From the NCBI GenBank assembly GCA_024638845.1, contig JAHEJN010000011.1:7237-52398 (forward strand): a DNA stretch of 45,162 nt, given 5' to 3'. Below are positions 29,067 through 32,069 of this stretch, in pieces. The notes under the pieces were generated by a model, which was not told the DNA's origin, did not search any database, and saw nothing but the letters and a program-made list of their open reading frames with translations. The stretch is from Acidimicrobiales bacterium (lineage in GTDB: Bacteria > Actinomycetota > Acidimicrobiia > Acidimicrobiales > JAHEJN01). The first letter of the stretch is position 1. The number at the start of each line of letters is the position of its first letter. A program made the translations under genes and the position numbers.

Positions 29067-29903
29067 TCAGACCTGGCTCTGTTCGCAGTAGTACGTCCAC
29101 CGCTTCTGATACTTGCTGCGAGCGATCGGGCGCCGTGATCGCGGCGACAGCTCGCCGTGCTTTCCGTACACGGCCAGGTGATCCTGGAACACGCCCGGTT
29201 GACCGAAGATGTCGTAGTAGCCGCCCTCTTCCAGGGTGGTGCCGCGGTACTTGATGGCGTCGTGCATCGTCTCGACCAACGCTCGGTAGAACCGCCGCAC
29301 CTCCTGGGTGGTGAGGGAGTTGCTCATCCGGTCGAACCGAAGCCCGGCATGGAAGAGGATCTCGTCGGAGTAGATGTCGCCGAGACCGATGAGAACGGAG
29401 TCGTCGAGCAGCAGGGCCTTGAGCTTCAGCTCGTGGCCCTGCAGGATCTGCGCGAAGTTGGTCCACGACATGGGTTCGTTCACAGGGTCGACGCCCAGCC
29501 CGATGAGCTCGGGGATCTCGTCGATGAGGTCTTCGTCGGGAACGACGAGCATCTGCGCATCGCCGTCGGGGTCGATGAGCCGGAGTTGTCCGCCCTGGGT
29601 GAAGGTGAATACAGCGACGGTCTTCGGCTCGAGGGCGTCCTTGTTGGCGTTTCGCTGGAGGTGCGCCCGCTCGCCGAGGTGAACGGCGAGAGTACTCCCG
29701 TTGTCGAGCCGGGCCAGCAACCACAGACCGAGGCGATCGAAGGTCTCGATCTTCACGCCATCGAGGGCGGCCGCGAACTTGGTGCGGTTGCCCGAGCGAG
29801 TCACCAGCTTCGGAACCGTGACGTCGACGTCCTTGATGCGCTTGCCTGTCACTTCTCGTTCGAGATCGCGGCGTGTCGTTTCGAGCTCGGGAAGACTGTT
29901 CAC
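29067..29903 (-). CDS. MutM/Fpg-family DNA glycosylase homologue lacking catalytic residues
   Basis: This 278-residue protein keeps the Fpg fold (LPELETTRRDLE at the start, the helix-two-turn-helix LLLDDSVLIGLGDIYSDEILFHAGL, and VYGKHGEL near the end) and the canonical place between rnc and smc. Fpg removes 8-oxoguanine using Pro2, Glu3 and a lysine, and binds DNA with a four-Cys zinc finger. Here residues 2-3 are Asn-Ser, the lysine position (GKYLL) is Leu60, the DPRRFG arginine is lost (DPDGDA), and the zinc finger reads SPRS and CEQS instead of CxxC and CxxC. The GTG start overlaps the rnc stop (GTGA), so the N-terminus is firm. It is probably a non-enzymatic DNA-binding paralogue. Confidence 0.9.
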   Translation of the reverse strand: MNSLPELETTRRDLEREVTGKRIKDVDVTVPKLVTRSGNRTKFAAALDGVKIETFDRLGLWLLARLDNGSTLAVHLGERAHLQRNANKDALEPKTVAVFTFTQGGQLRLIDPDGDAQMLVVPDEDLIDEIPELIGLGVDPVNEPMSWTNFAQILQGHELKLKALLLDDSVLIGLGDIYSDEILFHAGLRFDRMSNSLTTQEVRRFYRALVETMHDAIKYRGTTLEEGGYYDIFGQPGVFQDHLAVYGKHGELSPRSRRPIARSKYQKRWTYYCEQSQV

Positions 29904-31079: not shown

Positions 31080-32069
31080 TCAGACGGTGGCGGCGGCGGT
31101 GAGGTGATCGACCATGTCGGCGGTCACCAGGTCGCGAGCGGCGGTGACCGCGTTCAGCACCGCGGTCGGCGACGACGAGCCGTGACTGATCATGCAGACG
31201 CCCCTGACCCCCAACAACATGGCTCCCCCGACCGTGTCGGGATCCATCTGGGCGTAGAGCGGCAACAACGCCGGTGCCAAAAGGTCTGCGCCCTGGCGCG
31301 CCTGATCGGAGGATCCGAAGGCCTCGAGGAGGGCACCGACGATCATCTTGGCCGCACCCTCGGCCGTCTTCAGCGCGACGTTGCCGGTGAAGCCGTCGGT
31401 GACGATCACATCGGCGGCGTCGCCGAGCAGATCGCGGCCCTCGACATTGCCGACGAACTCGACATCGAGCACTTCTTGCCAACCGGGTTCGGCCAACAGC
31501 GCGTAGGCCTCCTTGACCAGTGGTGAGCCCTTGCCCGCTTCTTCACCGATCGACAACAAACCCACGCGGGGACGGGTCACGCCGTAACGGTCTCGGGCAT
31601 ATATCGCGCCCATGCGGGCGAACTGGGCGAGCATCTCGGCCTGCACCTCGGCGTTGGCACCCGAGTCGAGCAGTATGTTCGGTCGATCCGCGCCCAGCAC
31701 CGGCAGCGGCGTGGCGATCGCCGGACGGGAGAAGCCCTTGATACGGCCCATGCGCAGGAGCGCACTGGCCATGGTGGCGCCGGTGTTGCCGGCTGACACC
31801 ATCGCCGAAGCGTGTCCGTCGCGCACGGCCTCGGCGGCACGAACGAGGGATGAATCCTTCTTGGTGCGGACAGCTGACCCCGGCTCGTCGCCCATGGCGA
31901 TGACCTCGGAGGCGTCGATGTGATCGAAGTCGGGCGCGAGCTCGGCCAGGACCTCGGGCCGGCCGACCAACACCACCGGGATTCCGGCGGCAACGGCCAG
32001 ACGTGCGCCGTCGATGATCGCCCCGGGAGCGTTGTCACCCCCCATCGCGTCGACGGCAACCGGCAACAC
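31080..32069 (-). CDS. plsX: Phosphate acyltransferase PlsX
   Basis: This 329-residue enzyme converts acyl-ACP to acyl-phosphate for phospholipid synthesis. The start MLPVAVDAMGGDNAP, SAGNTGATMASALLRMGRIKG, RPNILLDSGAN and VTDGFTGNVALKTAEGAAK are all typical. The GTG start lies 6 bases after the rpmF stop. The rpmF-plsX-acpP order is the usual one. Confidence 0.96.
   Translation of the reverse strand: MLPVAVDAMGGDNAPGAIIDGARLAVAAGIPVVLVGRPEVLAELAPDFDHIDASEVIAMGDEPGSAVRTKKDSSLVRAAEAVRDGHASAMVSAGNTGATMASALLRMGRIKGFSRPAIATPLPVLGADRPNILLDSGANAEVQAEMLAQFARMGAIYARDRYGVTRPRVGLLSIGEEAGKGSPLVKEAYALLAEPGWQEVLDVEFVGNVEGRDLLGDAADVIVTDGFTGNVALKTAEGAAKMIVGALLEAFGSSDQARQGADLLAPALLPLYAQMDPDTVGGAMLLGVRGVCMISHGSSSPTAVLNAVTAARDLVTADMVDHLTAAATV

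Follow-up and report, generated by a model that had tools for sequence, protein, structure and literature searches.

A conserved MutM homologue encoded between rnc and smc in Acidimicrobiales has lost its catalytic residues and is a probable pseudoenzyme

The rnc-mutM-smc locus

The window, a 45,162-nucleotide stretch of contig JAHEJN010000011.1 from an Acidimicrobiales bacterium (GCA_024638845.1), harbors a MutM (Fpg) homologue of 278 codons, free of internal stops, between the genes for RNase III and SMC (Table 1). Upstream of the plsX-like gene lie rsmD-like, coaD-like and yceD-like genes, which together form an ordinary housekeeping stretch ahead of rnc. An intact frame between rnc and smc had been described in a sequence-only reading of this DNA, which gave no strand; the frame is open throughout and is located on the minus strand. 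The GTG start, which the same reading considered to be fixed by a GTGA overlap with rnc, was corroborated by a GGAGG sequence just 5′ of it and by the absence of any alternative ATG, GTG or TTG between the upstream in-frame stop and the GTG. A wrongly assigned start codon was thus rejected as the source of the unusual N-terminus, Pro2 being absent from many relatives as well.

Table 1. Features of the rnc-mutM-smc region (window coordinates)
Feature	Position	Strand	Description
MutM/Fpg-derived putative pseudoenzyme, 278 aa	29903..29067	minus	Starts with GTG; Fapy_DNA_glyco fold at the N-terminus, then H2TH domain and a C-terminal finger that lacks zinc ligands
Finger sequence of the above			S253 PRS256 ... 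C273 EQS276
Start region	29895..29903	minus	GTG shares GTGA with the rnc stop; codons 2 and 3 are AAC AGT in place of those for the canonical Pro2-Glu3
rnc, RNase III, 239 aa	29900..30619	minus	Upstream, same orientation; Pfam Ribonucleas_3_3 1.8e-38, dsrm 2.6e-17
smc, 1156 aa	25541..29011	minus	Downstream, same orientation; Pfam SMC_N 1.6e-68, SMC_hinge 4.3e-14
plsX-like gene	31080..32069	minus	Pfam FA_synthesis 4.4e-91

Family membership and residues lost

Judged by sequence comparison, the window protein is homologous to MutM far beyond chance: a MutM in the PDB is matched at 2e-38, and the Pfam domains Fapy_DNA_glyco (1.2e-17, 65 bits) and H2TH (7.7e-19, 67.9 bits) are both detected above their cut-offs. 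It carries both domains and the predicted fold of the Fpg/Nei structural superfamily, and its position between rnc and smc, together with its placement in the tree among rnc-linked MutM proteins rather than with the second Fpg described below, identifies it as an orthologue of the actinobacterial rnc-linked mutM product. In comparison with MutM/Fpg of known structure (Geobacillus, 1L1T/1R2Y; E. coli Fpg), the protein is alike in length, in its two-domain H2TH fold, in the E6/R57/Y176/D178/E179 framework and in its rnc-X-smc position, and differs in lacking Pro2-Glu3, K60, M77, R112, F114 and N174, in having lost three of the four zinc cysteines, in being acidic, and in scoring 184.1 bits against the NCBIfam fpg equivalog TIGR00577, below the cut-off of 203.3.

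Several of these losses had been noted before, and each was borne out. The N-terminus reads MNSLPELE, with Asn-Ser in place of Pro2-Glu3; the catalytic lysine (K60 in Geobacillus, K57 in E. coli) is replaced by L60; DPDGDA stands where the arginine of DPRRFG is expected; and the four zinc-ligand positions are occupied by S, S, C and S, a single cysteine being left. Additional losses, absent from the earlier list, affect M77, F114 and N174 (Geobacillus MutM numbering), which have become E, D and D, respectively, whereby the helix-filling wedge (M77, R112 and F114) and the phosphate contact N174 read E, D, D and D. The protein is consequently devoid of the features by which a functional MutM/Fpg is recognized, namely, Pro2/Glu3, the catalytic lysine, the wedge with N174, and the four-Cys finger. 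The window protein still has H74 and R264, which most of its relatives lack.

Zincless-finger members of the Fpg/Nei family, such as NEIL1 and Arabidopsis FPG (3twk), are active enzymes with a catalytic N-terminus and lysine. The window protein resembles them in its predicted C-terminal hairpin without zinc ligands, whereas the loss of zinc binding is only one of its many losses.

Distribution across the phylum

Five diagnostic residues (K60, M77, R112, F114 and N174) were scored in 237 rnc-linked MutM genes across the phylum, 154 from the order Acidimicrobiales and 83 from outside it. Ninety genes were canonical, a single one of them deviating at one of the five residues, and 147 were degenerate. 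The distribution within the order was bimodal, with 50/154 genes scoring 5/5, 104/154 scoring 0 to 2, and none scoring 3 or 4; outside the order, 39 genes scored 5/5, one scored 4/5, and 43 scored at most 2/5. The losses observed in the window protein are therefore common among its Acidimicrobiia relatives (104 of the 154 homologues in the order), and the 43 degenerate genes outside the order belong to another class, in which they are distributed over seven family groups (f67, f75, f79, f90, f97, f104 and f123). Within the order, degenerate genes occur in 22 family-level groups and canonical genes in 31, one group (f14) being mixed: L145 (G251) is the sole degenerate member, accompanied by the second Fpg, of this otherwise canonical group and may owe its state to a recent independent event or may lie on a foreign contig. 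For nearly every homologue of the order with both flanks present, rnc precedes the gene and smc follows it.

The zinc ligands are also lost in 69 of the 104 degenerate genes of the order, and many degenerate relatives retain all four cysteines. In the degenerate clade of the other class, all four finger cysteines were lost a second, separate time (L337 to L340 in f90 and L347 in f75).

Ten residues found without exception in the two canonical sets have become depleted in each of the degenerate clades (K60, H74, M77, S78, H93, R112, F114, Q166, N174 and R264); in MutM, most of them take part in catalysis, in contacting phosphates or in the wedge that probes for lesions. Residues kept in both degenerate clades and in canonical MutM (L4-P5-E6, E8, R57, G59, D137, Y176, D178, E179 and G219) probably serve the fold; in either degenerate clade, E6, R57, Y176, D178 and E179 are present in 98% or more of the members, and K24, R57, R203, R204 and R255 are likewise conserved in both. 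Pro2 and Glu3 are still present in some degenerate members.

Most genomes in the comparison are metagenome assembled. A binning or assembly artefact was rejected, as the degenerate state recurs in the family groups of both classes enumerated above, and in a separate set of named genomes, where 60 of 80 loci were degenerate, among them L169 and L172 of Candidatus Microthrix and L190 of the single-cell genome AG-410-I20.

Co-occurrence with a second, canonical Fpg

The genome that contains the window (3.70 Mb in 220 contigs) encodes five H2TH proteins. A second, canonical mutM, whose presence the sequence-only reading had proposed to look for, was found on contig C80 (L001:1123-1920), and its product is complete, with PELPE, the lysine, the wedge, N174 and four cysteines. 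Here, Fpg2 refers to such a second canonical Fpg encoded elsewhere in the genome and not to M. tuberculosis Rv0944. The four Fpg/Nei-family proteins encoded outside the window (L001, L003, L004 and L005, on contigs C80, C128, C106 and C105) comprise the canonical Fpg2, one of the MPEILEIEYYRR type that has DPRRLG, one of the MPELPDVV type that has a zinc finger, and one that is Nei2-like. Both ScpA and ScpB are encoded in this genome, and a role for the window protein as stand-in for a missing condensin subunit was accordingly rejected.

Fpg2 was detected in 94 of the 104 genomes of the order with a degenerate gene and in none of the 50 with a canonical gene (Fisher p = 8e-31, a value which is overstated as the genomes are related). 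Outside the order, where regions were picked partly by Fpg2 status and not by MutM state, the corresponding figures were 41/43 for degenerate genes and 0/40 for canonical or nearly canonical ones. Overall, Fpg2 accompanies 135 of 147 degenerate genes (the window genome included) and 0 of 90 canonical genes. All 14 Fpg2 sequences checked hold every catalytic, DNA-contact and zinc residue. In one further genome with a degenerate MutM, one in-frame TAG was reported in the Fpg2 gene (G112:C22:36162-36968).

Twelve degenerate genes reside in genomes without detectable Fpg2, and assembly gaps may lie behind some of these cases. They include the f54 g55 pair G054/G127 (95 to 96% complete) and three f58 genomes. 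In G174 (L083, L250; 98% complete), the degenerate rnc-linked gene is the only H2TH-domain gene found, and an Fpg2 may be hidden in an assembly gap. The near-complete assembly containing L156 (G012:C1:791987-792815) is without Fpg2 and carries a canonical rnc-linked mutM in two frames, a split which represents a frameshift or sequencing error.

Origins of the degenerate state

In a MutM tree restricted to the order, the degenerate genes form one group. A wider MutM tree recovers two degenerate clades, in different classes and each beside a different canonical clade, and its supported branches force two changes. Removal of the diagnostic columns yields two changes in the order and four in the wide set; as few changes remain, a tree artefact caused by shared degenerate residues was rejected. 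A single degenerate clade is not rejected by the AU test (p 0.2), and a poorly resolved tree of the neighbours rnc and smc distributes the degenerate genes over several groups, with five changes, three of them forced by supported branches. The degenerate state is therefore considered to have arisen once to a few times, and probably at least twice.

The basal member L017 (G006, C17:79748-80575), whose genome is without Fpg2, retains Pro2, Glu3, K60, R112 and all four cysteines and carries M77T, F114S and N174A. From its residues, L017 is likely to represent an intermediate, which suggests that DNA-probing residues were lost before catalytic ones. Given the residues of L017 and the Pro2/Glu3 retained elsewhere, some degenerate members may possess residual activity.

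Selection and retention

The degenerate genes are under purifying selection, for which the sequence-only reading had proposed to test the part of the gene that remains. The median dN/dS (NG86, close pairs) is 0.114 for 96 degenerate pairs in the order and 0.33 for 53 pairs outside it, most of the closest of the latter falling between 0.07 and 0.26; both medians are well below 1. For the window gene and its nearest relative, dN is 0.28 and dS 0.96, and for the degenerate genes of G054/G127, dN/dS is 0.035. Scaled to that of RNase III, the amino-acid divergence of MutM comes to 1.1 in degenerate genes and 1.02 in canonical ones. Neither stops nor frameshifts were encountered in the degenerate loci read. 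Intact frames, dN/dS and the RNase III-relative divergence rule out a pseudogene, and the lineage-wide loss of catalytic residues, coupled with purifying selection on the remainder, is the signature of a pseudoenzyme. The positions that were once catalytic are effectively free to vary.

Among Fpg2-positive genomes, the rnc-linked gene is retained in 168/172 (127/130 in the order and 41/42 outside it), the exceptions coming from fragmented assemblies that are, for the most part, plainly incomplete; retention holds in genomes smaller than 2 Mb as well. The sequence-only reading had specified that intact close relatives together with neutral decay would speak against a conserved non-enzymatic protein: intact relatives do exist, in other families that lack Fpg2, but decay was not seen.

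Predicted fold and surface charge

AlphaFold2, applied to the window protein with 77 orthologues, returned a model with a mean pLDDT of 94.7 and a pTM of 0.89, including the C-terminal hairpin without zinc ligands, and the top Foldseek matches of this model are MutM-DNA complexes (TM of approximately 0.9). The two-domain MutM fold is thus predicted to be intact. The median pI falls from 9.2 in canonical to 6.6 in degenerate proteins in one lineage and from 9.5 to 5.9 in the other, with net charge decreasing from about +7 or +10 to −1.5 or −6; the window protein has a pI of 5.7 and a net charge of −6.6. Proteome-wide acidification was rejected as a cause, the charges of the neighboring RNase III and SMC being unshifted.

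The charge shift and the loss of phosphate contacts argue against the binding of DNA lesions and favor contacts with protein. Because K24, R57, R203, R204 and R255 are conserved in both clades, nucleic-acid binding through another face is possible, net charge being silent on a local basic patch.

Proposed function

Taken together, these data make it likely that the window gene encodes a conserved MutM pseudoenzyme that ceded its catalytic task to Fpg2 and has been retained for a role other than catalysis. Fpg2 would have taken over 8-oxoguanine/FaPy excision, in two actinobacterial lineages or in one ancient lineage, after which the rnc-linked MutM would have shed the nucleophile region, the catalytic lysine, the phosphate contacts and the wedge that probes for lesions, some members losing the zinc finger as well, with the two-domain fold being retained under continued purifying selection. 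As catalytic and lesion-binding residues are lost but the predicted fold and purifying selection are kept, the degenerate protein would most likely neither catalyze a reaction nor bind lesions in the manner of MutM but act by contacting another macromolecule, which is probably a protein, given that the surface has turned acidic. We infer the absence of activity, the absence of lesion binding and the existence of a partner from these sequence features; candidate partners are RNase III, SMC-ScpAB, Fpg2 or another repair protein.

The sequence-only reading had envisaged a conserved, non-enzymatic, DNA-binding version of MutM, perhaps tied to RNase III or SMC. Conservation and a non-enzymatic nature are supported by the shared losses, purifying selection and a canonical second Fpg. 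DNA binding is weakened by the loss of phosphate-contacting and wedge residues in both clades and by the shift from basic to acidic, in which RNase III and SMC do not share. The operon argument carries less weight than was assumed, as the rnc-mutM-smc order is also that of canonical MutM in relatives and the adjacency of rnc and fpg has been published for mycobacteria, M. tuberculosis Fpg1 (Rv2924c) being linked to rnc (PMC2734929). The operon neighbors are hence candidate partners by position only. M. tuberculosis offers a partial parallel, in that Fpg1 shares the rnc linkage and a second family member, Fpg2 (Rv0944), is without the catalytic N-terminus; Fpg1, unlike the window protein, retains its N-terminal catalytic residues (PMC2734929).

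The most economical account would be that MutM has performed a non-catalytic task alongside repair from the outset and that nothing but this task has been retained in these lineages, such a role probably being present already in canonical MutM. In its fuller form, in which an ancestral second function was exercised perhaps with RNase III and SMC and a paralogue took over the glycosylase function in two lineages, leaving a MutM with the second function only, this account is put forward tentatively, at somewhat short of even chances.

It is possible, if rather unlikely, that the degenerate protein binds or regulates active Fpg2 or its repair intermediates, the two forming a functional pair. Such a pairing would explain the near-perfect co-occurrence (135/147 versus 0/90), but the same pattern is predicted by redundancy alone, and the 12 degenerate genes without detectable Fpg2, including the strongly constrained G054/G127 pair and the three f58 genomes, are difficult to accommodate.

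Alkyltransferase-like (ATL) proteins retain the ability to bind damaged bases. They resemble degenerate MutM, by analogy only, as conserved non-catalytic relatives of a DNA-repair protein (PMC10779285). They also provide the precedent for a damage sensor that binds lesions and passes them to another pathway, as ATL proteins do with O6-alkylguanine. The retention of the predicted fold and of the near-invariant E6, R57, Y176, D178 and E179 in both clades would be compatible with such a sensor; however, the lesion-binding residues are gone from degenerate MutM too, the phosphate-gripping and helix-filling K60, H74, M77, R112, F114, N174 and R264 being depleted in both clades, and the drop in net charge points the same way, rendering a sensor improbable.

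Still less credible is a changed enzyme, in which the fold has gained a new catalytic site or substrate. Constraint is strong, and polar residues are conserved in both clades (E6, E8, R57, D139, Y178, D180, E181, R203, R204 and R255, window numbering), but conservation of the same residues in canonical MutM points to a structural part, the positions of the former pocket are free to vary, and a new invariant, catalytic-looking cluster was not seen. Finally, slow decay after the arrival of Fpg2, with survival owed to a place between two needed genes on one transcript, would suit the freely varying catalytic positions and the unaltered gene order but is largely refuted, and is the most remote of these readings, in light of the absence of stops and frameshifts in the degenerate loci read, a near-canonical divergence relative to RNase III, dN/dS well below 1, a high-confidence predicted fold, and retention in all but four of the 172 Fpg2-positive genomes.

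Implications for MutM annotation and biology

Fpg/MutM is a textbook base-excision-repair enzyme, and its annotation is routinely transferred by fold. In the literature searched, coverage of which was partial, no description was found of an inactive conserved MutM or of MutM in Acidimicrobiia or Thermoleophilia. Judging by their residues, a whole branch of annotated MutM proteins would be unable to act as glycosylases by any known mechanism, and repair capacity would consequently be misassigned in these genomes, in which the real repair enzyme should be Fpg2. The gain of Fpg2, with catalysis lost from a MutM that was nevertheless retained, has probably happened twice and amounts to a natural separation-of-function experiment, which hints at an unrecognized and directly testable role of MutM. 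If an ancestral second function is indeed what has been preserved, it should also be exercised by canonical MutM proteins in other actinobacteria.
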